DNA of 64,000 nucleotides from Aphanomyces cochlioides (lineage: Eukaryota; Oomycota; Saprolegniomycetes; Saprolegniales; Verrucalvaceae). The notes below the pieces were generated by a model. The model worked only from the letters and a program-made list of their open reading frames with translations. It was not told the origin of the DNA and ran no database searches. The stretch is from NCBI GenBank assembly GCA_019828595.1, contig JAHQRK010000004.1:3844001-3908000 (forward strand), given 5' to 3'. Each line of letters begins with the position of its first letter. Within the stretch, counting starts at the first letter, position 1. The position numbers were made by a program, and so were the translations under genes. This document shows, piece by piece, positions 7,355 to 64,000 of the stretch.

Positions 7355-7402
<48 letters not shown>

Positions 7403-7427
7403 ACTGGTTCGATCCCGGTTCGTGGCA
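7355..7427 (+). tRNA. tRNA-Phe: tRNA-Phe (GAA), unit 1
   Basis: 73 nt that fold perfectly: acceptor GCCGCGA/TCGTGGC (one G-T pair), D stem GCTC/GAGC, anticodon stem TCAGA/TCTGA with loop CTGAAGA (anticodon GAA), variable AGGTC, T stem ACTGG/CCGGT with loop TTCGATC, discriminator A. CCA is not encoded. The A box is TAGCTCAGTTGG and the B box GGTTCGATCCC. A TTGTTTT run at 7428-7434 is a Pol III terminator. There is no intron. Its natural 5' flank has been replaced by the 5' end of element C, but both internal promoter boxes are intact. Confidence 0.98.
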
Positions 7428-8478
7428 TTGTTTTCACCACCACGCCTGCTTTTTCATTCACAACATCGCACCCTTCTTTTACACCACGGAGCGCACTTAC
7501 ACGCGCACACACTAACACATTGGACTTGTCCATTTCATTCACAACTCACACACCAACATAACCATGGACTGCACCTTTTACACTGCCATTCAAATTGCAA
7601 AGACAAAACACAGCATCCACGCACAGAATGCGATGCCATACATTCCTCCAAAGTCTCACGCCCAAGCTTGTCTCGCTCCTCTCTCAACGATCGAATGAAG
7701 CACAACTCATTCTCATGTCTTACTCTCGACAGCACACACAACCAAAATGGCGTCTAAGCAAGACGTTGATGTTTTCAGCGACAATACACATTACAAGGCG
7801 ATGGCTTCCTTCAGGACAGCACACACTTAACAATCATACGCGGAGGAGTTCCATCATGTAGAGGCCATGCATCATATGCTGGACGTCGTATCGTGTTCTC
7901 TTCAAAGAGCTATGAATAGAAAGAACGACCCATCCAATGCATGTGAAAGTTGCACGTAATGTGGAGCAAGCATACGTTGTCCACACTGATTCAAGTTCGA
8001 CGAGGAGAATACTCTATGCTCCAAAAAGTGCTCTTTTGACGACTTCTCGAGGCGAGGGACAATGACCCTCGATTTCTGTCAATATTCCGATCTCATTCGA
8101 ATCCCTCCTGTGGATAGTTCTTTCAACCACACATCGTTTGCTTTCTGAGCTACAAGACTCTAGATATTACTGTAGGATGAGTTTTTATGTCATTGCTTTA
8201 AAGTATATGTCATAGCATGGGAATCGCCAGAAGAAAGGACCATGACGTGGTTAGCGAAGCATGGGCAGACGAGTGTATTCCCTGTGATGTGGAAATGAAA
8301 CGGGATACTTTGTAGTATGGGATGTCAGTTAGTTGACAATGGTGTGTTTGAGTGTGCGTGTTGTTGCATAAGCTGAAGGAGGTAGTGTTCAGGGTGTATG
8401 GGGGGTGTTGTCAGGTGTGTGTATGTGTGTGGAAGAGGACGTGCGAGTGTGTGTGCATGGTCCTATGGAAGCATATAC
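7428..8478. repeat. Array spacer, unit 1 (1,051 bp)
   Basis: Spacer between tRNA-Phe 1 and 2, essentially identical to the seven other copies. It starts with the Pol III terminator, then a C/A-rich stretch, the decayed reading frame 7564-8148, and a G/T-rich tail (about 8340-8465, many GTGTGT runs) leading into GCATATAC just before the next tRNA. It carries a private G in the GGGGGG run near 8400, where the other copies have GGGAGG. No retrotransposon lies between units 1 and 2, so this is the uninvaded form of the unit. Confidence 0.9.
7564..8148 (+). pseudogene. Decayed coding-like frame in spacer, unit 1
   Basis: From an ATG in a good start context (ACCATGG) one frame runs 195 codons to TGA 8146-8148, with four internal stops (TGA after codon 44, TAA 7828-7830, TAA 7957-7959, TGA 7987-7989). 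The translation looks protein-like, especially after ATG 7747, with cysteine pairs around the last two stops (CESCT, CGASIRC, CSKKC) suggesting a former zinc-binding module. All eight spacers carry the same stops, so decay preceded array amplification. I do not recognise the family. About nine stops would be expected by chance, so the evidence for a former gene is suggestive only. Confidence 0.35.
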
Positions 8479-8526
<48 letters not shown>

Positions 8527-8551
8527 ACTGGTTCGATCCCGGTTCGTGGCA
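8479..8551 (+). tRNA. tRNA-Phe: tRNA-Phe (GAA), unit 2
   Basis: Identical to copy 1. This is the only tRNA in the window that keeps its native 5' flank (the G/T-rich spacer tail ending GCATATAC) and is complete. It shows the empty target site and the natural upstream region. The Pol III terminator follows at 8552-8558. Confidence 0.98.
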
Positions 8552-9601: not shown

Positions 9602-9615
9602 GCCGCGATAGCTCA
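9602..9615 (+). repeat. tRNA-Phe 5' stub (target-site duplication) left of A1
   Basis: GCCGCGATAGCTCA, tRNA nucleotides 1-14, after native GCATATAC and directly followed by the 3' end of A1. It holds half of an A box and no B box, so it is not a working gene. Confidence 0.95.
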
Positions 9616-9771
9616 CTGCAATGGGGAGGTATATTAATAGACTTTCAATATCTACTAATACTAATATTGCCTACTAACGGCTCATCCCACTTCCAAATGC
9701 TTCAGCAGATTTTCTACCTTGGGCTTTGGAGTACAGCGATTTTTGACTTTTGAATAAATACTTGGGGCTTG

Positions 9772-12700
9772 TTAATTTGGGGTTGAAGGTTGGAGCGCGA
9801 GCAAAGTCGGGTACTTGGCTACCAGTGGGCGATAGACAGGTTGTCTATGCAAAGTATTGATTGCTGAAATTGCTTCCACTCGTTGAGGGCTGTCAACTTC
9901 TTGGAGGCGAAGCCATCTGCGGATCGATGCATGCCATCGGATGAAGCTGACTTCTTGCCAAATTTCTGGCGGAGGCGGCTCCTTCGATTCGAACTTGGCG
10001 GCGTTGTGCGTTGTCCAAATATAGTGAAGGTTGGAAGCACACAGAAGAGCCCAGAGCACAAACAGTATGTCTTGAAGCTGGCTACCGCGTTCGTTGACTT
10101 GAAAGCGGTCGATGTTGGTGATGGCAGTCCAATCGAAATTGACACCGAAGCATCGCCAAGCGGTCGCGTGAAAACGCCAAAGGGGATACACGCGAGAGCA
10201 GGTGTGGAAGGCGTGGTGTTGGTTCTCCGGTGCGTCGCAATTGGTATAGACACAGCAAATTACGTCTGGCTGCTGAGGTTGCAAGTAGAACAAGCGCGAG
10301 TTGACAGGCAGCATGTTGAACAACAGTCGAAACCAAACGTCGCCATGGAGGGGAGGCGGCCAACGGCATGTTTTGCGGATGAGTCGCACGTAGGTCGCAA
10401 TATCTTGTTGCTCGACGCGGGACGATGTCGCCACTGGGTGCGGTTTTCCATCCGAAGGGGCGTGATGCGCCAAACGTGATACGAGTCGCTTGGGCCAACG
10501 CTCGAAGGATAGCAAGTGATCTTTGAAAAGTGCCTTGAAAGGGTGACTTGTTGTATCGATATCGGTCAAAGCAGTTCCAGTTCGAACGCCAGACGTGCGG
10601 AGGACTTGGTCGAATATCTTGGTGAGGTGGCTATAAACTTGACCAGCACGTTCGGGTGCTGCAAATCCCATCGCGCCGTTCGCTTGTAACGTCACTTGTG
10701 CCGCACGGTTGTTGGATGACAGTCGATCAATAAACGCAGCTCTTGTAGGCCATGTCCCTTGCCGTGTCAAGAAGTCTTTGAGGCAGTGGAAACCGTTTTG
10801 AGACGCATGTCTACACCATCGACGACACAGAGCAGTCTTCACGACATTTGATGTAGCACCCGCAGGACCAACTTGCAGAGCGGGGTAGGATGTCAGCCAC
10901 ACGGGGAGGTTCAAAAGTTCTTCGAGGCTTGGTGGCGAAGCGGTTCGCTTGGCCATAGGTGTGGCGGCCCATTGATGCCAAATGTCGTGCCAAAGAGGAT
11001 GCAGCTCCCACAAAAACAACCACTTGGAGCTGTGGTTGGGGAAGTACGTGAGAAAGTCGAACGGGTGGGTGTCGCGATACAGCTTGTTCATGACACGGGA
11101 AAATTGTCTCTTGACAAGCAACTTCCATGGGGCAAATGTGTTGGGTGAATTGGGCTGCATCAAGAGTTGGAGCCGCAGCAGTCGCTGAGTCCGAAGCTTC
11201 GAAGCCACATGCGGAATACCGAGGCCGAGTTTTTGATCGAACTGCCACTTGCGGCAAATAGTTGAGCGATGATGGTCGGTGATTTGCGTCTTCCGACCAA
11301 GGAGGATGTACTTGTTGACCATTCTTTGCCAAACGGCAACCATCGTTGGAGGCACATACACTGCAGCCGTGACATGCCATAACAACGACAACAACATGGT
11401 CGATACGATGAGTTTGCGGCCTTGGATGGTTCGCGCACGACTTCCCCACGTTTGAAACGCAGCCAGAAACTTGTCGTTCAGTTGCTGGACTTGAAAATCG
11501 CGCGGCAGTCGGTGGCCAAAGAGAATACCAAGGTATTTCACTGGCTTCTCGCTCGGCAAGACGTTCAAGAGGCCACCATCGTCGATGTCTTCGATATCGA
11601 GATTGTTGTTGAGCGCCAAAGTCATGCACTTGGCAACGTTGAGACGAGCTCCAGACACAGAGCAAAAGTCTTCGACAATTGCCATTTGCTCGACCGCCGC
11701 TTGGAGGGATGACGAGAGTAGAGTCGTGTCGTCGGCAAAGTAGATGCTCGTCAGTGAGTCTCCATTTGGAAGGGGAATACCAAAATCAGGAGATCCGCGT
11801 AGCATTTCGCCGAGTGGCTCGAGGTAAAGTACGAAGAGCATGCACGATAGGGGGCAACCTTGCTTGACTCCGCGGGTAGGCCGTATGGTAGGGCCAAGAC
11901 CGTCGTTGAAAATGATCTGGACCAGAGGCGTATTGTAAAGCAACTGAACCCAAGACACAAATGTGGGACCGATGTTCATCTCCTTGAGTACGTCGAAGAG
12001 AAAGCCTTGGTCAACCATATCGTATGCCTTGGAAAAGTCGAGAAACGTCGCGTAGTAGTCGTGGTCTTCATTGGTACAGAAAGTCTGCAATGCTTGTACC
12101 AGCATCACGTGGTCGTGCAAGCGACGGCCAGGGACAAAACCAGCTTGGCTTGGGTGAGCGAGGTATGGGGCAACTTGTGCAAGACGGTAGGCCAGCGCCC
12201 GCGATAGAATCTTGACTTCAACCGACATGAGAGTAATCGGCCGATAGTTGCCAGGGTCGCCTCTGTCTCCAGCCTTGAACAAGAGCGCCACTGCACTTCG
12301 GCGTTGTTGGAGCAGGAGGTGACCGTGATGGGTGAGTTGGTAGTTGAACACCTTGAGCAGGATTTGGGCGAATACGTCCGGGGAGACTTGAAAGAAAGCT
12401 GCAGGCCAGCCGTCTGAACCAGGAGACTTGTTCGGGTTCATAGACTTGAGCGCGCCGCACAGGTCTTCCGCCGTGAGAGGACTTTCCAGAGCGTCGCGCT
12501 GTTCTTGAGTGAGACGTCGAGTAATGGCTCGAATGATAGCTCGGCGACGGGCCCGATTCAACGGTGGTTGGTCTCTTGGAGTGACCATGATGTTTTTCCA
12601 ATGAGACGTAAAACCAGCCTTGACTTCAGACGGGTCAGTCGACGTTACACCGTTGATTGTCACGGACGAGAGCGGCACTTTGATCCCCTTGGGTCGACGA

Positions 12701-13929
12701 AAAAAGTGACTGGTACCTCGCTCGTTGACGTTGGCGTGAAAGTCGAATTGCTGATCCAGGTTGAACTGTCGGTACTCGCTGCGGGCAGTGTCAAGGGCTT
12801 GACGGGCGGTATTAACAATGGATGTCTCAACGAGTCCCATGTCGAATGCTCGGCGGGAAGTAAGCCACTTCATCTTGAGGCTGTTGAGTGTGTATTTCAT
12901 CGAGTCAATGTACTGGCGATGACTGACTTGGAGACGCTTCTTCATTCTCTTCAACCAGCCGTACCACTTTGCGCCAAAGTTTTGAGTGTCGTCTGCGCGC
13001 ATCTCGTCCAAAAGTTGATTGGCTTCGGCCTTGATCGCTGCGACTACTTGAGGGTTCTTTAAGAGCTCACGGGGGAGGCGCCAGTAACTTCGGTCGGGAG
13101 CTCGCTGCTCGCAGGAGAGGACCACTTTGTGTTCCATGTGGTCGCCTGCAAAGCTGCTTGGGGAATAGCTTGAACGTGCGTACGTTTGAGCGACGATATC
13201 TTGGTCCACAAACAGGTAGTCGAGGCGGTTGCTTCGACCAGGGCCGCTGTAAACGCGCTCGTTGGGGTGGTGCATCCTCCACGCATCGATAACACCAAGT
13301 GCTGAAAGCCAGGCAATGCATTCCGCCTTACCAGCGTTGTGGTCTTGGCGAGGTCGAGTCGCGTCCAGATGCTCCTCCAGGGGTAAGTTGAAATCGCCTC
13401 CGACAAAGTGAATGCTGTCGTCTTCAAAGTCGCGAGGCAGATCGTCGAAAAACGGTGCTCGAGAGTGAGCGATAACCGGGGCATAGACGTTGTGAAAGTA
13501 CACAGGAACGCCGTCCCACTGAGTTCGAACAACCATGTATCTTCCAGGTCGGTCATGGGTGGTCAAGTGTTGCAGGTCGAGGAATCCAGGCATGGATCCA
13601 TGGAAATACGATGCCACACCGCAGCGCCGATTGTTGAGTGAGTCGACGCGATCAGTGCGGAGATCGTTGGTGAAGAGCTTGTATTTGCCAACGCCTACTT
13701 CGTTGTTGAGGTGGAGTTGGAAGGTTTCGAGATGTTTGATGTTATTGATTTTGGTTTCTTGAAAGAAAACGGCTTGGGTCGGAATTTGGAGTCGCCGCGC
13801 CACAAGATGTCCGTTGTCTTTCAGCCCATTGAGGTTGGCAGTGGTCAGTTCGAGTATGGGGAACTTGGTGAAGAGACCGGCCGCGACCACCTTAGCCACG
13901 GAACGCGACAGACGTTGCGTTCGCAACAT
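9772..13929 (-). CDS. A1 ORF2: APE endonuclease-reverse transcriptase (intact)
   Basis: 1,385 aa, one residue longer than A5 because of an in-frame 3-nt insertion near 11305 (extra Leu in NKYILLGRK). All catalytic motifs are present: TANLNG, QETK, GDFNLP, RLDY, GDHMEH, FLDFSKAYD, TRGVKQGCPLS, FADD and the C-terminal CxxxxC-H-C motif. The ATG start overlaps the ORF1 fragment by 38 nt. The enzyme could in principle be made, but the element lacks its own 5' end and promoter. Confidence 0.9.
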   Translation of the reverse strand: MLRTQRLSRSVAKVVAAGLFTKFPILELTTANLNGLKDNGHLVARRLQIPTQAVFFQETKINNIKHLETFQLHLNNEVGVGKYKLFTNDLRTDRVDSLNNRRCGVASYFHGSMPGFLDLQHLTTHDRPGRYMVVRTQWDGVPVYFHNVYAPVIAHSRAPFFDDLPRDFEDDSIHFVGGDFNLPLEEHLDATRPRQDHNAGKAECIAWLSALGVIDAWRMHHPNERVYSGPGRSNRLDYLFVDQDIVAQTYARSSYSPSSFAGDHMEHKVVLSCEQRAPDRSYWRLPRELLKNPQVVAAIKAEANQLLDEMRADDTQNFGAKWYGWLKRMKKRLQVSHRQYIDSMKYTLNSLKMKWLTSRRAFDMGLVETSIVNTARQALDTARSEYRQFNLDQQFDFHANVNERGTSHFFRRPKGIKVPLSSVTINGVTSTDPSEVKAGFTSHWKNIMVTPRDQPPLNRARRRAIIRAITRRLTQEQRDALESPLTAEDLCGALKSMNPNKSPGSDGWPAAFFQVSPDVFAQILLKVFNYQLTHHGHLLLQQRRSAVALLFKAGDRGDPGNYRPITLMSVEVKILSRALAYRLAQVAPYLAHPSQAGFVPGRRLHDHVMLVQALQTFCTNEDHDYYATFLDFSKAYDMVDQGFLFDVLKEMNIGPTFVSWVQLLYNTPLVQIIFNDGLGPTIRPTRGVKQGCPLSCMLFVLYLEPLGEMLRGSPDFGIPLPNGDSLTSIYFADDTTLLSSSLQAAVEQMAIVEDFCSVSGARLNVAKCMTLALNNNLDIEDIDDGGLLNVLPSEKPVKYLGILFGHRLPRDFQVQQLNDKFLAAFQTWGSRARTIQGRKLIVSTMLLSLLWHVTAAVYVPPTMVAVWQRMVNKYILLGRKTQITDHHRSTICRKWQFDQKLGLGIPHVASKLRTQRLLRLQLLMQPNSPNTFAPWKLLVKRQFSRVMNKLYRDTHPFDFLTYFPNHSSKWLFLWELHPLWHDIWHQWAATPMAKRTASPPSLEELLNLPVWLTSYPALQVGPAGATSNVVKTALCRRWCRHASQNGFHCLKDFLTRQGTWPTRAAFIDRLSSNNRAAQVTLQANGAMGFAAPERAGQVYSHLTKIFDQVLRTSGVRTGTALTDIDTTSHPFKALFKDHLLSFERWPKRLVSRLAHHAPSDGKPHPVATSSRVEQQDIATYVRLIRKTCRWPPPLHGDVWFRLLFNMLPVNSRLFYLQPQQPDVICCVYTNCDAPENQHHAFHTCSRVYPLWRFHATAWRCFGVNFDWTAITNIDRFQVNERGSQLQDILFVLWALLCASNLHYIWTTHNAAKFESKEPPPPEIWQEVSFIRWHASIRRWLRLQEVDSPQRVEAISAINTLHRQPVYRPLVAKYPTLLALQPSTPN

Positions 13930-14136
13930 CTCCCAGCATGAGTGTCTGAGTGTCGGGTTGGAACATCACTTGGTTGTCGAAGGTGGGGTCTAGGGAGCCA
14001 GCCTCATGGAATTCCAGGATCGTGGTCAAGACGTATCGCGACTTCTCGTCTTCGCCGGCATACAACGTTTCCATGATATTCCAAATCAAGAGGCCGAAGC
14101 TCGTGTCAAGCAATATGGCAGATAGCGATACGCCCC
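13892..14136 (-). pseudogene. A1 ORF1, C-terminal fragment
   Basis: The last ~80 codons of ORF1 (ending TSVAFRG), truncated by incomplete reverse transcription at 14135/14136. Matches the C-terminus of the complete ORF1 at 36412-39411. Confidence 0.9.
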
Positions 14137-14150: not shown

Positions 14151-14228
14151 ATGTCAATGGGGAGTCTATTTGTAGTTAATGTAAACTACAAACTAATATT
14201 GCCCGAAGGCTCATCCCATTTCCAACTG

Positions 14229-15444
14229 CTAGGCTGAATTGGAAATCAATTTGGCTTTTCGTTTTCTTGATTCGCTTCGACGTTGGGACTTCGATTTCTT
14301 CGGTGTTTGTAAGCTAACACGGCGAATATGTCGGATAAAACTGACTCTTGGCATCTGACCCAGGGGGTATACATTTTCATTGTCTTGGATCATACATAGA
14401 CTTCGGTCTATGCAGCGCTTGTATCGCTTGGCGAGGACCCAGCAATGGGATGTTGAATCAGTGACAGAAACAACCAAGAATTCTCCGTCAGGCTCATCCA
14501 ATATCGCTCTACAGATATCACGAATTGGATCACCCACCGATTGCTTGAGCAGTTGACGGGAGAATATGGCGTCGTTGTAGTGGAATCCATGTGTGTATGC
14601 CAGCTTGAGAAAATCATGCATCTTGGAAGGGGGAATGCCCGCGTCTTGAGGAACTCCATGGGCCTCTTTGAAACCCGAAATGACTTCTTCGCTGAGCTCA
14701 AAATTGGAGACATTCAAATTGGTAGCAACGATTCGGATTGCAGCCGCAAGACAAGATTTGTCACTGTTGTTGCCAATTTCTAGCCACAGAGGATCCATCG
14801 CTCGAAATTCAGCAAGCGTTTGGGGCGAGACCAGTGTTCGTGAGGAAGTGGGCTCCAGCTTGTCGCCATCGTTGGTACATCGCCACGGCTTCTTGACACC
14901 CGCTGAGGTCTTTTTCGTCGAACCAGTCTTTGTCGAGTCCATCCGGGCGTTGAAACTTCCAGTTGACTTGGTATTGAATAGTTGAAATTCGATTTCGCAT
15001 TGATGCCACTTCGCGGTGGTCATCGATAAACAACACTTCATCGATGTCATCATCGTCGGTTGGAATTCGCAGAGTGCGTGGGCGGTTGGTTGGGGCATCA
15101 GCCGTTGTCGCATTCGTTTGTGGCCTGGCTGGAACAGAAACATCGTCCAATAGATCCATGAGGGATGGTAGCGGAGATCCATTGTCATTGCCCAAGGGGT
15201 CAAATTCGCGGGTGCTCGAGTTCAAAATGGACATATCAGGAGTAAATTGGTGTTCTTCAGTTGTAACTGGACTTGAAGGACGAGTGTCGGATGATTGCGT
15301 CATAGGTACAGAAATCTCAACTCCATCCACTCCCTCAAGAGTAATCCCTGGAGACATCGAGCTCCCCACACCTCGTGTAGTTATGGGTCTCGACGTCTGC
15401 GCGGGGAGTACGCTATCGGCAGTGAAAATCGTTGAAGCTTCCAT
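14229..15444 (-). pseudogene. B1 ORF3 (chromodomain-cysteine peptidase), frameshifted
   Basis: Same protein as the intact ORF3 at 23028-24242, but a single extra T near 14821 (GCGTTTGGGG instead of GCGTTGGGG) breaks the frame between the chromodomain and the peptidase-like domain. B5 carries the same insertion. Confidence 0.85.
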
Positions 15445-15657
15445 TGTTGTTGTCTTGGGTAAAATCAAAAGTGAGTCTTGGAGAATTGTTTTGAGATTCT
15501 CACTGAACTTATTCTCAGTTGCGACACTTGAGTCAGGCACGATTTGATTGGGCAGTGAAATGTTTTGCGCGGATCGTGAGTGATGGTCGCCAGGATTCCC
15601 AATCAAAAATTCAGCTGGGATACCAAGTCAAGAATACAGCTGGGGCTTGTAATCAAA

Positions 15658-17029
15658 TTACTGGTGTTCAACTCGAAAAGACATGGGATATTTTTCGAAT
15701 AGCTCGTTGTATCCAGCTTGAGAGAAAAGGACTGAGACCGCTTCGATGATGTTTCGATAGTCGAAGTCGTCAGGCGAGAGCAAACGAATTGTTCGCCTGA
15801 TGGAAGCTGTCCAACTGACAAATATAATCTCGTTCCATAGTAAAATCGGTAGAGGCTTTTTGCCATCGAACTTGGTTGCATTTCTTTGAGTCCATAAGGA
15901 GTACGTGATGGAAGCACAAAGGAGGGACCATAATTTGAATAATGCGTCATGCAGGTGTTTTCCTCGCGTATTGGTCTTGAAGCGACTGATATTCGTGGTG
16001 GTTGCCCAATCAAACTTAACACCATAAGCTCTCCATGCTCGCTCTTGGAACATCCAAACTTGATGTACATGATGACATGTATGGAAGGCATGATGAAAAG
16101 TCTCAACATCCGAGCAATCTTCATAGACACAACAAATAGCGTCAGGGTTTTGGATCTGCATATAGGAAAACCTCGAGTTGACGGGTAACATCTTCATGTG
16201 CAATCGAAACCATACATCGCCTTGAACAGGTGGAGGTAGATTACACACAGTACGAATGAGACGGATATACTTTGCTATGTCTTTGTCAGTTCTTGTCGTA
16301 GTCTTCATAGGATGTATAGCTTCAGTCTGGGGGGCGTGGTAAGCTAAATGCACCACGTTTTTCTTGGGCCACGACTCGAAAGGTAAATCAGCATCCTTGA
16401 TTCTGGCTGTAAACGGATGTTGACAAGTCGGGACATTAGGCAGTGGCGACCCTTGCCGAATGTCAAACGATCGAACAACTTTGTCGAAGATTCGTGTGAG
16501 TTGATTGTAAATGTCGGTTGTGCGGGGCAATGTGGCAAAGTCCATGACTCCGTCCTGGTTTAGACAAACTTGGGCAGCTGGATTGTTCGACGACATTCGG
16601 TTCACGAACATGGTCTCTGTTGGCCAAGCGCCATGTGGGGTCAGGAAATCCTTCAGGCATCTGAGACCATTTTTGGCCCCGTGGCGGCACCAGAGACGCA
16701 TGTCTTCATCTTTCACGACATTTGCTAACATCTTAGCAGAGCCGAAGTGCATTGCGTCGTAGGCTGTGAGCCATACCGGGAGGTTCAGTACCGTGTCGAG
16801 ATTTGGAGACACGCCGATTCGCTTACTCATGTCTGTGGCTGACCAATGTTTCCAAGTATCAAGCCACAGTGGATGGAGCTCGCGAAGCAAAAGCCACTTG
16901 GAGCTTGCATTTGGGTAGTATGAAAGAAAATCGAATGGGTGACTGTCTCGGAATAACTGATGTATTGTGCGGCTAAATTGTCGCTGTACAAGTTTCTTCC
17001 ACACCAGGATTTCACCAGGAGAATCGGCC
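15658..17029 (-). pseudogene. B1 ORF2, C-terminal fragment
   Basis: The last ~457 codons of ORF2 remain open (post-RT region and zinc motif CVYEDCSDVETFHHAFHTC); the endonuclease and RT domains are missing because the element is 5'-truncated. Confidence 0.9.
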
Positions 17030-17077
<48 letters not shown>

Positions 17078-17102
17078 ACTGGTTCGATCCCGGTTCGTGG
17101 CA
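17030..17102 (+). tRNA. tRNA-Phe: tRNA-Phe (GAA), unit 3
   Basis: Identical to copy 1, with both internal promoter boxes and the TTGTTTT terminator. Regenerated by the target-site duplication of B1; its 5' flank is now antisense ORF2 sequence. Confidence 0.98.
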
Positions 17103-21811: not shown

Positions 21812-21859
<48 letters not shown>

Positions 21860-21884
21860 ACTGGTTCGATCCCGGTTCGTGGCA
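21812..21884 (+). tRNA. tRNA-Phe: tRNA-Phe (GAA), unit 4
   Basis: Identical to copy 1; regenerated by A3 insertion, terminator TTGTTTT at 21885-21891. Confidence 0.98.
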
Positions 21885-26466: not shown

Positions 26467-26467
26467 C

Positions 26468-48681: not shown

Positions 48682-48733
48682 GTTGTCAGTTTTGGACAGT
48701 GGTACTGCGGGGTAGCTGGCAAATTGGAAACTC
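48682..48733 (-). promoter_or_regulatory. Family B 5' UTR/leader (B3)
   Basis: 52 nt; 48698-48733 identical to the family A leader at 39429-39464. Presumed internal promoter. Confidence 0.55.
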
Positions 48734-48781
<48 letters not shown>

Positions 48782-48806
48782 ACTGGTTCGATCCCGGTTC
48801 GTGGCA
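48734..48806 (+). tRNA. tRNA-Phe: tRNA-Phe (GAA), unit 7
   Basis: Identical to copy 1; 5' flank is the B3 leader, terminator TTGTTTT at 48807-48813. Confidence 0.98.
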
Positions 48807-52432: not shown

Positions 52433-52510
52433 ATGTCAATGGGGAGTCTATTTGTAGTTAATGTAAACTACAAACTAATATTGCCCGAAGGCTCATCCCA
52501 TTTCCAACTG

Positions 52511-53726: not shown

Positions 53727-53939
53727 TGTTGTTGTCTTGGGTAAAATCAAAAGTGAGTCTTGGAGAATTGTTTTGAGATTCTCACTGAACTTATTCTCAG
53801 TTGCGACACTTGAGTCAGGCACGATTTGATTGGGCAGTGAAATGTTTTGCGCGGATCGTGAGTGATGGTCGCCAGGATTCCCAATCAAAAATTCAGCTGG
53901 GATACCAAGTCAAGAATACAGCTGGGGCTTGTAATCAAA

Positions 53940-56900
53940 TTACTGGTGTTCAACTCGAAAAGACATGGGATATTTTTCGAATAGCTCGTTGTATCCAGCT
54001 TGAGAGAAAAGGACTGAGACCGCTTCGATGATGTTTCGATAGTCGAAGTCGTCAGGCGAGAGCAAACGAATTGTTCGCCTGATGGAAGCTGTCCAACTGA
54101 CAAATATAATCTCGTTCCATAGTAAAATCGGTAGAGGCCTTTTGCCATCGAACTTGGTTGCATTTCTTTGAGTCCATAAGGAGTACGTGATGGAAGCACA
54201 AAGGAGGGACCATAATTTGAATAATGCGTCATGCAGGTGTTTTCCTCGCGTATTGGTCTTGAAGCGACTGATATTCGTGGTGGTTGCCCAATCAAACTTA
54301 ACACCATAAGCACTCCATGCTCGCTCTTGGAACATCCAAACTTGATGTACATGATGACATGTATGGAAGGCATGATGAAAAGTCTCAACATCCGAGCAAT
54401 CTTCATAGACACAACAAATAGCGTCAGGGTTTTGGATCTGCATATAGGAAAACCTCGAGTTGACGGGTAACATCTTCATGTGCAATCGAAACCATACATC
54501 GCCTTGAACAGGTGGAGGTAGATTACACACAGTACGAATGAGACGGATATACTTTGCTATGTCTTTGTCAGTTCTTGTCGTAGTCTTCATAGGATGTATA
54601 GCTTCAGTCTGGGGGGCGTGGTAAGCTAAATGCACCACGTTTTTCTTGGGCCACGACTCGAAAGGTAAATCAGCATCCTTGATTCTGGCTGTAAACGGAT
54701 GTTGACAAGTCGGGACATTAGGCAGTGGCGACCCTTGCCGAATGTCAAACGATCGAACAACTTTGTCGAAGATTCGTGTGAGTTGATTGTAAATGTCGGT
54801 TGTGCGGGGCAATGTGGCAAAGTCCATGACTCCGTCCTGGTTTAGACAAACTTGGGCAGCTGGATTGTTCGACGACATTCGGTTCACGAACATGGTCTCT
54901 GTTGGCCAAGCGCCATGTGGGGTCAGGAAATCCTTCAGGCATCTGAGACCATTTTTGGCCCCGTGGCGGCACCAGAGACGCATGTCTTCATCTTTCACGA
55001 CATTTGCTAACATCTTAGCAGAGCCGAAGTGCATTGCGTCGTAGGCTGTGAGCCATACCGGGAGGTTCAGTACCGTGTCGAGATTTGGAGGCACGCCGAT
55101 TCGCTTACTCATGTCTGTGGCTGACCAATGTTTCCAAGTATCAAGCCACAGTGGATGGAGCTCGCGAAGCAAAAGCCACTTGGAGCTTGCATTTGGGTAG
55201 TATGAAAGAAAATCGAATGGGTGACTGTCTCGGAATAACTGATGTATTGTGCGGCTAAATTGTCGCTGTACAAGTTTCTTCCACACCAGGATTTCACCAG
55301 GAGAATCGGCAGACATAAAGAGCTGTAAACGAAGAAGGCGTTGTGTTCGCAGCCTCGATGCAATGTGGGGGATTCCCAGGCCTAAAGGCTTGTCGTACTG
55401 CCACCTTCTATGGATTGAGGGACGGTAACTCTCATCGAGCTGGGTCTTGCGGCAAAGTATGAACTTGTTTAACATTTGTTGCCACGTAACGACCATAGCA
55501 GGAGGCACAGGTACAACGGCTGTTACATGCCACAACATAGATAGCAACATCGTGGAGGCAATAAGCTTTCGGCCCTGCAATGTCCTTGCTCGTTTACCCC
55601 ATAGTTGAAAGGACGAGATGAATTTGTCGTTGAGTTTTTGAAGTTGGGAGTCAGCCGAAAGTCGATGGCCAAAGAGAATACCAAGATATTTCGTACACTG
55701 ACCAGTTGGTACGATATTGAGCAAACCATCTGCTTCGATGTCTTCTTGATCGAGATGGTCGTTGAGAACCAAGGTCATGCACTTGGAACGATTCAGACGG
55801 GCCCCTGAAGCCGTGCAAAACTCTTCCACAATTGCCATTTGCTCCACAGCAGATTGCAGCGAGTTTGATAACAACGTCGAGTCGTCGGCAAAGAATATAC
55901 TCGTAATAACTGAGTCGTGGGGAGAGCGATTCCAAGATGTGGGGACGCTCGGAGCATCTCACCAAGAGGTTCTAGGTATAGGACGAACAGTAGGCATGAT
56001 AAAGGACAGCCTTGTTTGACGCCTCGGGTAGGTCGGATCTTAGGGCCAAGCTCGCCATTGAAGATGATCTGGACCAAAGGTGAGTCGTACAAAAGAGCTA
56101 CCCACGCAATGAAACCATCACCAGTGTTGACTTCTCTCAGCACATCAAGCATAAATTCTCGATCCACCATGTCGTACGCTTTCGAAAAGTCAAGGAATGT
56201 TGCATAGTAGTCGTGATCTTCGTTGGTGCAAAACGTTTGCAAAGTTTGCACAAGCAGGACGTGGTCATGCAGCCGTCGTCCTGGGACAAAGCCAGCTTGA
56301 CTTGGGTGAATGAGATGAGGAGCTACTGTAGCCAGGCGATAAGCGAGGGCACGGGATAGTATCTTCACCTCCACTGACATGAGTGCAATAGGTCGGTAGT
56401 TTCCAGGATCGCCTCGATCACCAGCTTTGAAGAGCAGAGCCACAGCACTACGCCTTTGTTGAAGGAGTAGTTTACCGTGGTGGTGAAGTTGGTAGTTGAA
56501 GACCCTGACCAGGATTTCGGAGAAAGCCTCGGGTGCTACTTGGAAGAAGGCCGCTGGCCATCCATCAGGACCAGGAGACTTGTTTGGACTCATTGTCTTG
56601 AGAGCACTACACAGCTCGGCTGCTGTGATAGGTCTGTCTAGCTCCTCGCGTTGCTCATCATTGAGTTTGCGGGAGATAAACCGTATGACAGCCCTCCGCC
56701 TCGCCCGGTTTAGCCGAGGTTGTTCGCCACGAGTGGTAGTCATTATTGCCTTCCAATGGGCAGTGAATCTCTCTTTGATAGTGGTAGGATCAGACACGGG
56801 AATGCCATCGACGTTGACCGTCGTGATAGGAACCTTGAGTCCTTGTGGCCTTCGAAAGAAGTGGCTCGTACCGCGTTCGTTGATATTTGCATGAAAATCG

Positions 56901-58054
56901 AATTGCTGATCCATGCGGTATTGGCGATATTCGATTCTTGCGTTTTCCAGCGCCAACCGAGTAGCATCAACGGCAGCCTCGTCGAGCAAGCCAGCTTCGT
57001 ATGATCGTTGTGCAGATATATGTCTCAGTTTCAGGCTTTTGAGCTCGTGTTGCATGGATTGGAGGTGGTGGCGATGACATTGTTGTAAACGTCGTTTGAT
57101 TCGCTTAAGCCACCCATACCAGACGGCTCCCATGTTTGTCGATTCGTCCGCACGCATCTCAGAGAGGAGGTGTGATGCCTCTTCTCGTATGGCTTTGATG
57201 ACGAGCGGGTCTTTGAGTAGCTCTCTCGGCAGCCTCCAGTAGCCACGGGTCGTGGGTGTATGACTTGTAGAGAGAACGACAGTGTGCTCCAAGTGATCTC
57301 CGGCAAAGCTGTTAGTGGCATATTTTGAGCTTTGGTAGGATTGGGCAACTAAATCTTGGTCAATGAACCAGTAGTCCAGACGATTGCTTCGTCCTGGACC
57401 GCTTGCCAGTCTTTCGTGAGGGTGGTGTAGGCGCCACGCGTCGATGACTCCTAGTTGTGACAGCCAGGCAAGACATTCGACTTTTCCAAAGGTGTGATCT
57501 TGCCGTGGTTTGGAAGCATCGAGGTGTTCGTTGACAGGAAGGTTAAAATCTCCCCCAACCAGGTGTACACTGTTAGCTTCAAAAGCGCGAGGGAGACTGT
57601 CAAAGAAACTAGCCCGATGTTGAGGGGTAACTGGCGCGTAAATGTTGTGGATGTAGACTGGGGTTTCATCCCAGTACGTTTTGATCACAATATAACGGCC
57701 AGGGATATCGTGTTGTGATAAGTGCACCAGGCTTGAGAATCCAGGCATCGATTCGTGAAAGTATGATGCAACGCCACATCGACGGTTGTTCAAATTGTCC
57801 GTGCGGGTTGTTCGTAAGTCGTTGGTAAAAAGTTTGTACTTGCTAACACCCACTTCGTTGTCGAGGTGAGTGTGGAAAGTGTCAAGATGTTTTGCGTTGT
57901 TGAGTTTCGTTTCTTGAAAGAGAACAGCTTGTGTCGGTTTCCGAAGACGCCGTGCAACAAGATGTCCGTTTTCTTTCAGCCCATTGAGGTTGCTCGTCGT
58001 CACTTCAAGTATGGGGAGCTTGACAAAATGACCAGCCGCGACCACTTTAGCCAC
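53940..58054 (-). pseudogene. B5 ORF2, frameshifted
   Basis: Full-length ORF2 with a 1-nt deletion in a G run near 55921 (GTGGGGAGAG instead of GTGGGGGAGAG), just upstream of the FADD motif. The endonuclease and first RT blocks are in one frame, FADD and the C-terminus in another. As in B3, no ATG near the start. Confidence 0.9.
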
Positions 58055-60512
58055 GGGAAGCGATCGTTGTGAGATCCGCTAGGTCGCCGTGAATTAAAGT
58101 AGGTTCGCTTGGGTGAAACATGACTTGATTGTGGAGAGTGATATCCAAATCGTTGCTTTCGTGTAGTTGAAGGATTTTTGTCATGATGTGACACATCGAT
58201 TCTCCGTCGCCAGTGTACATGAATTCCATTCTGTTCCATATGTGGAGGCCAAGGTCGGTGTACATCAGGAGTGACATGAGCGTTTCGGAGGATAGACTGC
58301 GTTTACCAAGGCGAGAGGGTAACGCTGTCACTGGACTTTTTGTTGAGGCCAAAATTGCCGCATCGCTATTGAAATATAGTGGAGCATGAACTGCCATCAA
58401 TACTTCTGCAATGGCCAGCACTTCTTCGACTTCAACTCTGTTGAGGACGATGTCATCATCGGTGATGATTGCCTCGATGAGTGGGAGGTTGTTGACCATC
58501 TTCTGGTCACTGAACACCGAGATCACGTGGTCGTGAGTGATTGGAGTGCCGAACGTTGCCTCGTAGAGCTGACCAAAAGATTTTGTGCCACCACCAGACG
58601 CTCTTAGCCAACGATTAAGCAGTCGAAGACGAACAAAGTATTCGAAGCTGTCACGATTGGAGACAAAAATTTGGTGCAGTTGCAGTCCAAATTCGATTGG
58701 CGCACGTTCTAGATGGATGCAGATCGTGTCAACACGCCCGTCCGTAATCAATTTCAATAAGTTGAAGGAATCGTGCGCTAACGCTTCCTTAACTTGGGCC
58801 GGGATATGTTGTGGTGCGTTTTGAGCCTTGGTGTCAAGGTCGTTGAGCTCGGCAAGTATGGCATCGAGAGACTTCTCAAACCTTTGGATTGAGCCCTCGT
58901 GGGGTTTGATCCCGCTAATGAACTCTTCAGCGGCAACGTGCACCTTGTCACCAGATTTGAGTGTCAGCTTTGGAACAATTACTTTGACAGTGGTGTTGCC
59001 AACTGTCGTTTCGTGTTCCTCGGGCTCAACATTAGCGCGTTCGTCCAGAGCCGCAAACATGTTCGGGGAGATCCAAGGACGATCAGGAGCTGGGATTGAG
59101 CCAGCGGAGATTGGGGTTTTCTTTCTTTTGCCTGTAGTTTGAACTTCAGTCCATTCCTTGTTGCTGTCTCGGGTCGTTTTCTGCCGTTTGGCAGTGGATG
59201 TCGAGACAGCGGCGTCTCCCCGTGGGCGGTGAGGGGTTGCGTGAAGTCCATGTTGGGTGGCGATTACATCGAGGTCAAGGCGCGCGAGCTTCTTGTCACG
59301 GTAAAACCATCCTTGACCAAACACGCGGAGGCACCGACCCTTGAAAATGAATTCTTCAATTGATCGACCGTCATTGTGCATAGATTCGGGTATAGCTGTC
59401 CCTTCAAAATACAAGCGATAACGAGAGCTAGCCAAGCCAGTCGTCGAGGAAACTGTGGAGTATGAGCCCCACAAAAAGCGCGGCTCAAGCTTTGACATGA
59501 TGCTGAACATGAGACGTTCTTCATCCTGTCCTTGGAGACCAGATGGGATATCGATGAAATATCCATCAAGTATATGGGGCTCAGTCATGACAAATCTCTG
59601 AGAGCTGCCATCCTTTGCCACTTGGATCTTGAGAGAGACTCCACGCAGCTTTTTAAGAGCATCTTCAGAGGCTATGCCCCACTTGAGAAGACGATTGGAG
59701 ACATCTTTCTCGCACTTGATGACATCGACAAATGCATCGTCCAAATCAAGCGCTTGGTTGTCAAACAATAGAGATGTCATTGCCTTGGAGATGTCGATGT
59801 ATTTGGTGTATTGGCCAGTGGACATTTGTAGCCAGCCAACAACATCTCTGGGGGAATGTTTTTGGATGGGCAAAGTGTCGTCAAACGTGAGAGATCCTGT
59901 CGCGCGTTTTTGCAACAAGGACGCCAGCTCGGCCATAGTTGGTCGATAATGGCCGACGTCACTGTTCCGCTGAGCCTTGGCAGATTTAGCTCTCTGCTTG
60001 GCTTGGAATTCCCACACGCATTCGTTTGGCTTTTTGGTCGAGGTGTTCGACTCGGGTGGTATTGGCACAGAGCGTGTTGTAGCAGGAGGCGAGGCATCGA
60101 TTTGAGCTTCAGGCTCCATTTCCACATCAACATTGGTGTCGCGAATCGATTGGTCTTCAGAGCGCGGCTCCAGCTCAGTGGCTTGAGTAATCGGTGGGGT
60201 ATGTGGTTGGTTGTTGTTGGAGATATCCTCTATGTCTTCATCAGGCATCGGAGAAACATTATCCTTGTTGACAGTTTTGTCGCTGGTACGAGCGCTTGGT
60301 AATGGCACGCGACCACCGAGTGTAGCAAGACGTATGGGCGGTTGAGCAGCAGGCGGAGTTTTGTCGATGATTGAGTCAGGTTCATCGTCATCATCATCGT
60401 CAACAATCACCTCCATGATACTAGAAGCGTCCGAGGTATTGCGAAAGGGAGAGACAGAAAAAGCTGAGGGCTTGTGTGCATGAGCACGGCTGGAAGAGCG
60501 GGTAGTCGCCAT
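58047..60512 (-). CDS. B5 ORF1: retrotransposon RNP protein (intact)
   Basis: 821 aa from the ATG at 60512. N-terminal ~165 residues disordered, with an acidic run (VDDDDDDEPDS). Conserved region TMAELASLLQKRATGSLTFD, IQKHS and GWLQM as in family A; probable RRM-like core with GYFIDIP, SRYRLYFEG and FKGRCLRVFGQGW; basic KRQK and GKRKK; ISPNMFAALDE; and an α-helical C-terminal domain ending TTIASRG. The N-terminus is shorter than in family A, and no zinc knuckle is present. The stop codon TAA lies inside the start of the ORF2 frame. Confidence 0.85.
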   Translation of the reverse strand: MATTRSSSRAHAHKPSAFSVSPFRNTSDASSIMEVIVDDDDDDEPDSIIDKTPPAAQPPIRLATLGGRVPLPSARTSDKTVNKDNVSPMPDEDIEDISNNNQPHTPPITQATELEPRSEDQSIRDTNVDVEMEPEAQIDASPPATTRSVPIPPESNTSTKKPNECVWEFQAKQRAKSAKAQRNSDVGHYRPTMAELASLLQKRATGSLTFDDTLPIQKHSPRDVVGWLQMSTGQYTKYIDISKAMTSLLFDNQALDLDDAFVDVIKCEKDVSNRLLKWGIASEDALKKLRGVSLKIQVAKDGSSQRFVMTEPHILDGYFIDIPSGLQGQDEERLMFSIMSKLEPRFLWGSYSTVSSTTGLASSRYRLYFEGTAIPESMHNDGRSIEEFIFKGRCLRVFGQGWFYRDKKLARLDLDVIATQHGLHATPHRPRGDAAVSTSTAKRQKTTRDSNKEWTEVQTTGKRKKTPISAGSIPAPDRPWISPNMFAALDERANVEPEEHETTVGNTTVKVIVPKLTLKSGDKVHVAAEEFISGIKPHEGSIQRFEKSLDAILAELNDLDTKAQNAPQHIPAQVKEALAHDSFNLLKLITDGRVDTICIHLERAPIEFGLQLHQIFVSNRDSFEYFVRLRLLNRWLRASGGGTKSFGQLYEATFGTPITHDHVISVFSDQKMVNNLPLIEAIITDDDIVLNRVEVEEVLAIAEVLMAVHAPLYFNSDAAILASTKSPVTALPSRLGKRSLSSETLMSLLMYTDLGLHIWNRMEFMYTGDGESMCHIMTKILQLHESNDLDITLHNQVMFHPSEPTLIHGDLADLTTIASRG

Positions 60513-60565
60513 GTTGTCAGTTTTGGACAGTGGTACTGCGGGGTAGCTGGCAAATTGGAAACTGC
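60513..60565 (-). promoter_or_regulatory. Family B 5' UTR/leader (B5)
   Basis: 53 nt; 60529-60563 matches the leaders of A5 and B3. The last two bases before the tRNA are GC rather than C, which may be untemplated or part of the duplication. Confidence 0.5.
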
Positions 60566-60613
<48 letters not shown>

Positions 60614-60638
60614 ACTGGTTCGATCCCGGTTCGTGGCA
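60566..60638 (+). tRNA. tRNA-Phe: tRNA-Phe (GAA), unit 8
   Basis: Identical to copy 1; 5' flank is the B5 leader, terminator TTGTTTT at 60639-60645. Confidence 0.98.
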
Positions 60639-61689
60639 TTGTTTTCACCACCACGCCTGCTTTTTCATTCACAACATCGCACCCTTCTTTTACACCACGG
60701 AGCGCACTTACACGCGCACACACTAACACATTGGACTTGTCCATTTCATTCACAACTCACACACCAACATAACCATGGACTGCACCTTTTACACTGCCAT
60801 TCAAATTGCAAAGACAAAACACAGCATCCACGCACAGAATGCGATGCCATACATTCCTCCAAAGTCTCACGCCCAAGCTTGTCTCGCTCCTCTCTCAACG
60901 ATCGAATGAAGCACAACTCATTCTCATGTCTTACTCTCGACAGCACACACAACCAAAATGGCGTCTAAGCAAGACGTTGATGTTTTCAGCGACAATACAC
61001 ATTACAAGGCGATGGCTTCCTTCAGGACAGCACACACTTAACAATCATACGCGGAGGAGTTCCATCATGTAGAGGCCATGCATCATATGCTGGACGTCGT
61101 ATCGTGTTCTCTTCAAAGAGCTATGAATAGAAAGAACGACCCATCCAATGCATGTGAAAGTTGCACGTAATGTGGAGCAAGCATACGTTGTCCACACTGA
61201 TTCAAGTTCGACGAGGAGAATACTCTATGCTCCAAAAAGTGCTCTTTTGACGACTTCTCGAGGCGAGGGACAATGACCCTCGATTTCTGTCAATATTCCG
61301 ATCTCATTCGAATCCCTCCTGTGGATAGTTCTTTCAACCACACATCGTTTGCTTTCTGAGCTACAAGACTCTAGATATTACTGTAGGATGAGTTTTTATG
61401 TCATTGCTTTAAAGTATATGTCATAGCATGGGAATCGCCAGAAGAAAGGACCATGACGTGGTTAGCGAAGCATGGGCAGACGAGTGTATTCCCTGTGATG
61501 TGGAAATGAAACGGGATACTTTGTAGTATGGGATGTCAGTTAGTTGACAATGGTGTGTTTGAGTGTGCGTGTTGTTGCATAAGCTGAAGGAGGTAGTGTT
61601 CAGGGTGTATGGGAGGTGTTGTCAGGTGTGTGTATGTGTGTGGAAGAGGACGTGCGAGTGTGTGTGCATGGTCCTATGGAAGCATATAC
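60639..61689. repeat. Array spacer, unit 8
   Basis: 1,051 bp, same content as the other spacers. Confidence 0.9.
60775..61359 (+). pseudogene. Decayed coding-like frame in spacer, unit 8
   Basis: Same frame and stops as at 7564-8148. Confidence 0.33.
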
Positions 61690-61703
61690 GCCGCGATAGC
61701 TCA
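61690..61703 (+). repeat. tRNA-Phe 5' stub left of A7
   Basis: tRNA nt 1-14 joined to the 3' end of A7. Confidence 0.95.
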
Positions 61704-63982
61704 CTGCAATGGGGAGGTATATTAATAGACTTTCAATATCTACTAATACTAATATTGCCTACTAACGGCTCATCCCACTTCCAAATGCTTCAGCAGATTT
61801 TCTACCTTGGGCTTTGGAGTACAGCGATTTTTGACTTTTGAATAAATACTTGGGGCTTGTTAATTTGGGGTTGAAGGTTGGAGCGCGAGCAAAGTCGGGT
61901 ACTTGGCTACCAGTGGGCGATAGACAGGTTGTCTATGCAAAGTATTGATTGCTGAAATTGCTTCCACTCGTTGAGGGCTGTCAACTTCTTGGAGGCGAAG
62001 CCATCTGCGGATCGATGCATGCCATCGGATGAAGCTGACTTCTTGCCAAATTTCTGGCGGAGGCGGCTCCTTCGATTCGAACTTGGCGGCGTTGTGCGTT
62101 GTCCAAATATAGTGAAGGTTGGAAGCACACAGAAGAGCCCAGAGCACAAACAGTATGTCTTGAAGCTGGCTACCGCGTTCGTTGACTTGAAAGCGGTCGA
62201 TGTTGGTGATGGCAGTCCAATCGAAATTGACACCGAAGCATCGCCAAGCGGTCGCGTGAAAACGCCAAAGGGGATACACGCGAGAGCAGGTGTGGAAGGC
62301 GTGGTGTTGGTTCTCCGGTGCGTCGCAATTGGTATAGACACAGCAAATTACGTCTGGCTGCTGAGGTTGCAAGTAGAACAAGCGCGAGTTGACAGGCAGC
62401 ATGTTGAACAACAGTCGAAACCAAACGTCGCCATGGAGGGGAGGCGGCCAACGGCATGTTTTGCGGATGAGTCGCACGTAGGTCGCAATATCTTGTTGCT
62501 CGACGCGGGACGATGTCGCCACTGGGTGCGGTTTTCCATCCGAAGGGGCGTGATGCGCCAAACGTGATACGAGTCGCTTGGGCCAACGCTCGAAGGATAG
62601 CAATTGATCTTTGAAAAGTGCCTTGAAAGGGTGACTTGTTGTATCGATATCGGTCAAAGCAGTTCCAGTTCGAACGCCAGACGTGCGGAGGACTTGGTCG
62701 AATATCTTGGTGAGGTGGCTATAAACTTGACCAGCACGTTCGGGTGCTGCAAATCCCATCGCGCCGTTCGCTTGTAACGTCACTTGTGCCGCACGGTTGT
62801 TGGATGACAGTCGATCAATAAACGCAGCTCTTGTAGGCCATGTCCCTTGCCGTGTCAAGAAGTCTTTGAGACAGTGGAAACCGTTTTGAGACGCATGTCT
62901 ACACCATCGACGACACAGAGCAGTCTTCACGACATTTGATGTAGCACCCGCAGGACCAACTTGCAGAGCGGGGTAGGATGTCAGCCACACGGGGAGGTTC
63001 AAAAGTTCTTCGAGGCTTGGTGGCGAAGCGGTTCGCTTGGCCATAGGTGTGGCGGCCCATTGATGCCAAATGTCGTGCCAAAGAGGATGCAGCTCCCACA
63101 AAAACAACCACTTGGAGCTGTGGTTGGGGAAGTACGTGAGAAAGTCGAACGGGTGGGTGTCGCGATACAGCTTGTTCATGACACGGGAAAATTGTCTCTT
63201 GACAAGCAACTTCCATGGGGCAAATGTGTTGGGTGAATTGGGCTGCATCAAGAGTTGGAGCCGCAGCAGTCGCTGAGTCCGAAGCTTCGAAGCCACATGC
63301 GGAATACCGAGGCCGAGTTTTTGATCGAACTGCCACTTGCGGCAAATAGTTGAGCGATGATGGTCGGTGATTTGCGTCTTCCGACCAAGGATGTACTTGT
63401 TGACCATTCTTTGCCAAACGGCAACCATCGTTGGAGGCACATACACTGCAGCCGTGACATGCCATAACAACGACAACAACATGGTCGATACGATGAGTTT
63501 GCGGCCTTGGATGGTTCGCGCACGACTTCCCCACGTTTGAAACGCAGCCAGAAACTTGTCGTTCAGTTGCTGGACTTGAAAATCGCGCGGCAGTCGGTGG
63601 CCAAAGAGAATACCAAGGTATTTCACTGGCTTCTCGCTCGGCAAGACGTTCAAGAGGCCACCATCGTCGATGTCTTCGATATCGAGATTGTTGTTGAGCG
63701 CCAAAGTCATGCACTTGGCAACGTTGAGACGAGCTCCAGACACAGAGCAAAAGTCTTCGACAATTGCCATTTGCTCGACCGCCGCTTGGAGGGATGACGA
63801 GAGTAGAGTCGTGTCGTCGGCAAAGTAGATGCTCGTCAGTGAGTCTCCATTTGGAAGGGGAATACCAAAATCAGGAGATCCGCGTAGCATTTCGCCGAGT
63901 GGCTCGAGGTAAAGTACGAAGAGCATGCACGATAGGGGGCAACCTTGCTTGACTCCGCGGGTAGGCCGTATGGTAGGGCCAA
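61704..63982 (-). mobile_element. Element A7 (family A, 5'-truncated, 2.3 kb)
   Basis: 3' UTR variant I; 5' break inside ORF2 at GGGCCAA, followed by a stub and the start of another family A copy. Confidence 0.93.
61860..63982 (-). pseudogene. A7 ORF2 fragment
   Basis: About 707 codons, open from just upstream of TRGVKQGCPLS to the stop, including FADD and the zinc motif. The endonuclease and the first catalytic Asp of the RT are missing. Confidence 0.9.
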
Positions 63983-63996
63983 GCCGCGATAGCTCA
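63983..63996 (+). repeat. tRNA-Phe 5' stub between A7 and A8
   Basis: tRNA nt 1-14; its first base or two may also be A7 sequence. Confidence 0.93.
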
Positions 63997-64000
63997 CTGC
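63997..64000 (-). mobile_element. Start of element A8 (family A, cut by window edge)
   Basis: Only CTGC after the stub, the family A 3' end (family B would read ATGT). The element continues outside the window. Confidence 0.7.

Follow-up and report, generated by a model that had tools for sequence, protein, structure and literature searches.

L1-type retrotransposons of Aphanomyces cochlioides probably insert at one A-box position of many tRNA genes and leave the gene rebuilt

The 64,000-nucleotide stretch of DNA analysed here (the window; C34:3844001-3908000, with C34 denoting the contig) belongs to a tandem tRNA-Phe array of the oomycete Aphanomyces cochlioides that is occupied by non-LTR retrotransposons (lacking long terminal repeats). 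Three families (A, B and C) and a fourth, C-like one are in all probability (about 85 %) L1-type elements that insert at a single position of the A box, the tRNA gene being rebuilt at each insertion. All 13 insertions of families A and B in the window as well as the adjoining copy of family C start after nucleotide (nt) 14 of the tRNA and run antisense to it, the insertion point lying between A14 and nt 15 (TAGCTCA^G). This A-box target is provided by many tRNAs and not by tRNA-Phe alone.

Insertion junctions and intact tRNA genes in the array

Eight tRNA-Phe(GAA) genes were identified in the window by ARAGORN, all sharing one 73-nt sequence, and the array unit measures 1,123-1,124 bp with 99.7-100 % identity to the first unit. 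When the sequence on either side of the window is included, the array extends in one orientation from C34:3789434 to the end of this contig (3,994,282 bases) and from the start of contig C15 to position 273514. The series of units and insertions at the right end of C34 is repeated at the left end of C15 (loci L021-L027); judged from this repetition, the two ends seem to overlap and probably represent a single array split in the assembly or two haplotypes. Counts that combine C34 and C15 therefore probably include some features twice, namely about 12 of the tRNA genes and 4 of the insertions. Across the assembly (76.2 Mb, 94 contigs), 90 tRNA-Phe starts were counted (first 26 nt; no reverse or control match), and the 14-mer of nt 1-14 matched 168 times in forward and never in reverse orientation or with the reversed-pattern control, the contig overlap being included in both counts. 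Among the matches listed, all places of the 14-mer are on C15 and C34. As large tandem tRNA arrays are known from the oomycete Phytophthora infestans (accessible part of PMC9584435), the array itself is not new.

Within the window, GCCGCGATAGCTCA (tRNA-Phe nt 1-14) occurs in 21 copies, exclusively on the plus strand, corresponding to the 8 intact genes and 13 stubs. Twelve of these stubs directly precede CTGCAATGGGG (family A) or ATGTCAATGGGG (family B), and the 13th crosses the window end and continues as A. The 3' end of the family C copy (C34:3842078) likewise follows directly after a stub. Every insertion has the same layout: flank, tRNA nt 1-14 and the element from 3' to 5' end; what comes next is either a whole tRNA gene or, within a chain, another stub. 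The stub represents half of a target-site duplication, and a complete tRNA gene stands at the 5' end of each element or chain.

The array was read over 310 kb (C34:3774001 to contig end, C15:1-30000 and C15:230001-290000; C15:30001-230000 was left out). All 63 tRNA-Phe bodies therein, 12 of them probably second copies due to the contig overlap, keep their first 14 nt, two with a substitution; disruption of the tRNA genes was rejected, as none of the bodies read lacks nt 1-14. The apparent duplication was measured in 38 insertions on C34, all of the 39 except a composite, and amounts to 14 bp (16 insertions), 15 bp (15) or 16 bp (7). Of the 38, 27 carry a 5' truncation; the other eleven exceed 6,900 bp and were counted as full-length. 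The flank of the stub is native in 22 of the 39 insertions; in the other 17 the stub adjoins the 5' end of another element, so the rebuilt gene has been reused as a target. The element nearest to the tRNA should thus be the youngest of its chain.

An initial annotation of this DNA, made from its letters, had described eight identical tRNA-Phe genes on a 1,124-bp period, with 13 A and B insertions and one of C in a single orientation after nt 14; ARAGORN and the 13 of 13 stubs bear this out. Its description of the genes as interrupted has to be given up, since each insertion leaves a complete gene. The census of tRNA-Phe loci and their occupancy that it proposed yielded the 90 starts given above and an occupancy that is considered below together with the strictness of the site.

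Target site in tRNA genes across the genome

The common 3' end of A and B was found exactly at 428 places (322 forward, 106 reverse; reversed-pattern controls 0) and, allowing one mismatch, at 433 (controls 3 and 2). GCTCA stands at the right distance before 424 of the 428 exact ends (320 + 104; controls 0). Twenty 3' flanks outside the array were sampled from the listed places, and 19 of them are tRNA starts by eye, of the same kinds as those read at the 5' ends below; ARAGORN found no whole tRNA in these 20 short flanks, as expected of stubs. This search for stub-element junctions, suggested by the initial annotation, led well beyond the tRNA-Phe array, and did not reveal A or B ends at many unrelated non-tRNA sites.

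Full-length A and B 5' ends were located at 170 places genome-wide. In all 20 sampled outside the array a tRNA start lies within 0-6 nt: ARAGORN called a tRNA in 12, three are occupied stubs, four are intron-bearing tRNA-Tyr by eye and one is a broken tRNA-Ala. The kinds named by ARAGORN are Lys TTT, Lys CTT, Ala CGC, Ala AGC and Asn GTT. For the Tyr-like pieces no tRNA was called by ARAGORN even with intron options, the Tyr reading being by eye. A 5' end of family C directly precedes tRNA-Thr(CGT). Junctions were thus read at Phe, Lys, Ala, Asn and Thr genes as called by ARAGORN, and at Tyr genes by eye. Of the target proposed initially, the tRNA-Phe array, the A-box position between nt 14 and 15 stands, while the restriction to Phe falls with these five ARAGORN kinds and Tyr; specificity for tRNA-Phe is ruled out by the same ends at other tRNA kinds on other contigs.

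On contig C12, a B 3' end adjoins a tRNA-Lys stub at 657976, and 8.1 kb away, at 649850, a full-length 5' end adjoins an intact tRNA-Lys(TTT); judged from these two ends, the distance is that of one full-length B. Contig C23 carries two tRNA-Asn stubs in divergent orientation (3867412 and 3868348, a distance of about 900 bp), both occupied, and arrays with units on both strands therefore exist. At L062, L065 and L089 (C24:36544-36659, C27:558560-558743), tRNA-Ala bodies beside full-length 5' ends turn into unrelated sequence past the anticodon arm; the one at L062 is still called by ARAGORN despite this change. At L043 (C15:1207573-1207873), a B element occupies a site that ends in AAATTGGCTCA, shortly after a tRNA-Val-like 5' half.

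Family C was searched with a 25-mer composed of GCTCA and the C end (up to 3 mismatches). It matched 82 places, 70 of them with GCTCA; of the remaining 12, five are tRNA-like, namely GGGGGTGTAGCGCA (twice), GGGGTTGTAGATCA (twice) and a single Lys stub that carries a short repeat. The fourth family, 71-82 % similar to C over pieces, was detected at C34:3791513.

Element families and encoded proteins

The measured copies of A, B and C have lengths of 7,327, 8,131 and 9,277 bp, respectively. Each family possesses two open reading frames (ORF1 and ORF2), and B a third. ORF2 of all three matches the reverse transcriptase (RT) family RVT_1 (1e-32 to 1e-37), and C in addition the endonuclease family PF03372 (1.1e-11). 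ORF2 of A matches L1-type endonuclease chains (4.6e-5 with 2v0s, 1.8e-4 with 1vyb). The best match in the PDB, for which A and C were queried, is L1 ORF2p (E 7e-57 and 6e-50, respectively), to which A aligns from residue 125 on. R2 proteins match A and C more weakly and in the RT region only, and no RNase H family was detected in Pfam scans of the element proteins. The 14-16 bp duplication together with 5' truncation is as found after target-primed reverse transcription. Judged by their encoded proteins, A, B and C classify as L1-type (APE endonuclease) non-LTR retrotransposons, and the initial view of them as site-specific elements of this kind with an L1-type ORF2 holds. Its count of three families was incomplete: A, B and C were all recovered, and the C-like fourth has to be added.

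Three other classes were considered and ruled out: NeSL/R2-type elements (C-terminal restriction-like endonuclease, no APE) by the presence of the APE domain and the confinement of R2 matches to the RT; the dictyostelid TRE/NLTR type (set distance outside the gene) by the position of 13 of 13 window 3' junctions inside the A box; and Dada DNA transposons, which have a DDE transposase and a 6-bp duplication, by the encoded RT and the 14-16 bp duplication.

In ORF2, 64 % of the residues are common to A and B, and 38 % to C and either of these. A tree was computed from 38 rows (A, B and C with 35 of 120 listed protein matches; a Thraustotheca clavata match was left out) and was flagged for long branches and uneven composition; in it the three families fall into one group of 23 (SH-aLRT 100) together with rows from Aphanomyces astaci and other sources. 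C lies at the base, if only approximately placed there, outside a starred group of 19 rows containing A and B. Since families on both sides of the split between A plus B and C use the A box, this habit is probably ancestral. The A. cochlioides protein AC1031_016288 is homologous to a frame of the window (95 % identity over 66 %), and ORF1 of A matches another A. cochlioides protein (99 % identity over 94 %). No relatives with DNA context were found in viral and genome contig collections. The last 500 bp of the C34 copies (21 A, 14 B) are on average 99.7 % identical, which may reflect recent activity or exchange that keeps the copies alike.

The first 70 bp are conserved between A and B (86 %), and by eye their initial 15 nt have a counterpart at the 5' end of C, with GGCAAA 10-15 nt before the tRNA; perhaps this shared motif serves as leader or promoter. 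Hairpins at the 3' terminus scored z-values of -2.45 (A), -3.36 (B) and -1.08 (C; not convincing), and none were found at the 5' ends of A and B. Tandem repeats of about 57 bp lie towards the 3' end of family C (positions 7968-8463 of the element at C34:3842078-3851354). The third frame of B (458 aa) is open in two of the four window copies holding this region (40681-42057 and 23028-24404, minus strand). In two window copies it gave no Pfam match up to E 1, and none in NCBIfam or the PDB; a laxer scan revealed Chromo at 0.015 in one of four relatives. By eye it looks chromodomain-like, followed by a cysteine-protease-like motif, and its AlphaFold model is poor (mean pLDDT 38).

Proposed mechanism and alternative explanations

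We infer the order of nicks, the enzyme responsible and the activity of the rebuilt tRNA genes as follows. As the strict 3' end of the element abuts nt 14, the primer would be the tRNA-sense strand ending at A14. The element endonuclease would nick this strand after A14, and the freed 3' end would prime reverse transcription from the strict element 3' end. On the other strand, the cut would lie 14-16 bp upstream and so coincide with nt 1 or slightly precede it, regardless of the acceptor-stem sequence. The ensuing duplication would leave the stub of nt 1-14 on one side and on the other a whole tRNA gene, the new 5' flank of which would be element sequence. One stagger may rebuild any tRNA, because the A box lies at a fixed distance from nt 1. 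Promoters of tRNA genes for RNA polymerase III (Pol III) are mostly internal, and the rebuilt gene should still be transcribable, since it keeps its internal A and B boxes. It would also stay a landing site, which would give rise to head-to-tail stacks with the newest element nearest to the tRNA and would not use up the target, and tandem exchange in the array would copy occupied and empty units alike. That every tRNA whose A box fits is restored in full, so that the landing site is never exhausted and the element 5' end becomes the new tRNA leader, is the somewhat favoured, though distinctly less secure, extension of this scheme.

Several points weigh against insertion with rebuilding as proposed. 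The endonuclease of A and B remains below the Pfam cut-off (0.02 and 0.0039, respectively). Four of the 428 A and B ends lack an exact GCTCA before them, the sampled B site at L043 is ambiguous, and the tRNA-Ala at L062, one of the 12 genes called by ARAGORN, looks aberrant in its 3' half. For C, the absence of non-tRNA sites expected by the initial annotation is borne out less fully than for A and B: 7 of the 82 listed places are not recognisable tRNA stubs, four of which share near-identical flanks ending in TAGCTTA, and the search pattern contained GCTCA and was hence biased to A-box sites. The count of duplication lengths was seeded on 14-nt stubs and is blind to shorter ones, and the one or two extra matching bases may be chance. 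The insertions are not independent, since units were copied. The genome survey comprises copies with the defined A/B or C ends, related families with other 3' ends falling outside it.

The A-box motif recurs in the array spacer, outside the tRNA and on the other strand, as TAGCTCAG. In the 310 kb this site is empty in 62 of 62 copies, versus 48 of 109 occupied tRNA-Phe nt 1-14 sites (contig overlap included in both counts, insertions copied with their units not being independent). The 8-mer alone is therefore insufficient, TAGCTCA as sole target is not supported by the empty spacer copies, and either a longer sequence or bound Pol III factors must be needed in addition. GNNGG or GNGG follows the 8-mer in the tRNAs read, and intact TAGCTCAGNNGGNAGAGC was counted 675 times genome-wide (433 + 242; controls 1 and 0). 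Guidance of the insertion by Pol III factors (TFIIIC/TFIIIB), the endonuclease not itself reading the A box, is a variant of the proposed mechanism that leaves the rebuilding unaffected; it is a possibility to be taken seriously, if not the likelier one. Apart from the empty spacer sites, it gains from Dictyostelium TRE5-A, which, according to the accessible parts of PMC5006619 and PMC5391098, depends on B boxes, probably owes its position to the A box and has an ORF1 protein that binds TFIIIB subunits in vitro. However, the cut in A. cochlioides is base-exact and TRE5-A inserts about 47 bp upstream, and a longer DNA target (TAGCTCAGNNGG) fits the spacer result equally well.

That the pattern stems from a few inserted units multiplied by unequal exchange, in place of many insertions, does not exclude the other readings but is unlikely as the main cause. 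Some truncation points are found more than once (9616-14136 and 27606-32123, for example), three successive units hold the same pair of A copies (2,279-2,281 and 1,271 bp), and the 43 spacers compared are on average 99.9 % alike; the recurring ends point to exchange or amplification of occupied units. Nevertheless, the varied truncation points and family orders, together with the same ends in other tRNA arrays on other contigs, require many separate insertions, and exchange accounts for the copies but not for the junction.

Under ordinary disruptive insertion of the R1/R2 kind, a tRNA gene would be killed when occupied, and the intact genes would simply be those of neighbouring units. Orientation, fixed 3' junction and tandem array resemble those of elements in ribosomal DNA (rDNA), but the absence of any tRNA-Phe body without its first 14 nt, the position of the intact gene at the element 5' end with no spacer length between, and the intact tRNA-Lys, Ala and Asn genes adjoining full-length 5' ends elsewhere render this very improbable. 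An assembly artefact of the repetitive region, for which the overlapping copies of one array at the ends of C34 and C15 could be adduced, can practically be dismissed given the same junctions on many contigs beside several tRNA kinds and the homologous element proteins in separate Aphanomyces records (the latter being silent on junctions).

Features of the window

All elements and their frames are encoded on the minus strand, and all tRNA-Phe(GAA) genes and stubs on the plus strand. The family C element occupies positions 1-7354 (9,277 bp in total, its 3' end at C34:3842078 lying beyond the window) with ORF2 (420-4562; endonuclease PF03372 and reverse transcriptase PF00078) and ORF1 (4579-7272; 897 aa), and an intact tRNA-Phe at its 5' end (7355-7427). 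The next intact gene (8479-8551) has a native 5' flank. The stub at 9602-9615, the left half of a target-site duplication, precedes a 5'-truncated A (9616-14136) with the truncation point of 27606-32123; a 5'-truncated B is chained behind it (14151-17029), with an intact gene at its 5' end (17030-17102). Further stub 14-mers start at 14137, 18154, 21143, 22936, 27592, 32124, 40589, 49857, 51891, 52419, 61690 and 63983.

Two 5'-truncated A copies, the second of which is chained (18168-21142 and 21157-21811), lead to the intact gene at 21812-21884, and a 5'-truncated B (22950-26467) to that at 26468-26540. The 5'-truncated A at 27606-32123 is followed by the full-length A (32138-39464; 7,327 bp), with both ORF2 (32295-36449; 1,384 aa, with L1-type endonuclease and reverse transcriptase) and ORF1 (36412-39453; 1,013 aa) open and an intact gene at its 5' end (39465-39537). 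Two copies of B are full length. The first (40603-48733; 8,131 bp) has an open ORF2 (42109-46224; 1,371 aa), ORF1 in two pieces and the 458-aa third frame downstream of ORF2, and adjoins the intact gene at 48734-48806. Behind a 5'-truncated A (49871-51890) and a chained, 5'-truncated B (51905-52418), the second is likewise chained (52433-60565; 8,133 bp); its ORF1 is open (58047-60512) and its ORF2 in two pieces, and the intact gene at 60566-60638 stands at its 5' end. A 5'-truncated A (61704-63982) and a chained A 3' end (63997-64000), which runs on beyond the window, complete the series.

Comparison with known systems

Dewa, Mutsu and Keno are members of the Tx1 group. Described (by context) from zebrafish, they target the tRNA-Leu spacer (Dewa), 5S and U2, and share with the A. 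cochlioides elements the non-LTR type and set targets in multicopy small-RNA loci; unlike the latter, they have one target each, and neither an A box of many tRNAs nor gene rebuilding is described for them in the accessible part of PMC3706591. NeSL-1_TV (tRNA-Pro), LIN15_SM (tRNA-Arg) and LIN25_SM (tRNA-Glu) are likewise non-LTR elements specific for tRNA genes, but as far as the accessible part of PMC4640811 goes they are treated as relatives of NeSL, a clade with a restriction-like endonuclease, and have one tRNA kind each, in contrast to the L1 type and many kinds found here.

The dictyostelid elements TRE5, TRE3, NLTR-A and NLTR-B also use tRNA genes as landing sites, yet they are placed by distance outside the gene, with no A-box cut described in the accessible part of PMC5006619. 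According to the same source, NLTR-A precedes tRNA nt 1 by 2-6 bp, comparable to the 5' ends of the elements here, which lie directly upstream of the gene, and one may speculate that it could be a similar case viewed from its 5' side. Dada DNA transposons resemble the present elements in having an A-box site in several tRNA kinds (TAGCTC, nt 8-13), but, according to the accessible parts of PMC8869645 and PMC3706591, combine a DDE transposase and a 6-bp duplication with tRNA genes described as disrupted, in contrast to RT, 14-16 bp and whole genes. With human L1 ORF2p (PDB 8uw3), the best PDB match, the elements share the endonuclease-RT layout.

To judge from the literature searched (subscription papers and Repbase lay outside the search), non-LTR elements in A boxes have not been described from oomycetes, and neither has an L1-type lineage with one A-box cut site in many tRNAs and a gene-restoring duplication. 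To our knowledge, L1 has no tRNA target. Other tRNA-targeting elements being already known, what appears to be new is the combination of L1 type, A-box cut in many tRNAs and duplication restoring the gene. By restoring gene and target alike, the duplication may free the element from any limit set by target number and cost the host little. The elements further provide a testable case of an L1-type enzyme gaining base-exact specificity for the short shared A box, via DNA or Pol III factors. If true, the extension of rebuilding to any tRNA with a suitable A box would represent a general way of parasitising essential genes harmlessly, and a system found in nature for placing DNA next to a tRNA gene that is itself restored. 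Site-specific rDNA elements disable the unit they enter; in A. cochlioides, hundreds of kilobases of elements reside in a tRNA array in which every gene read is whole, because the duplication restores it.

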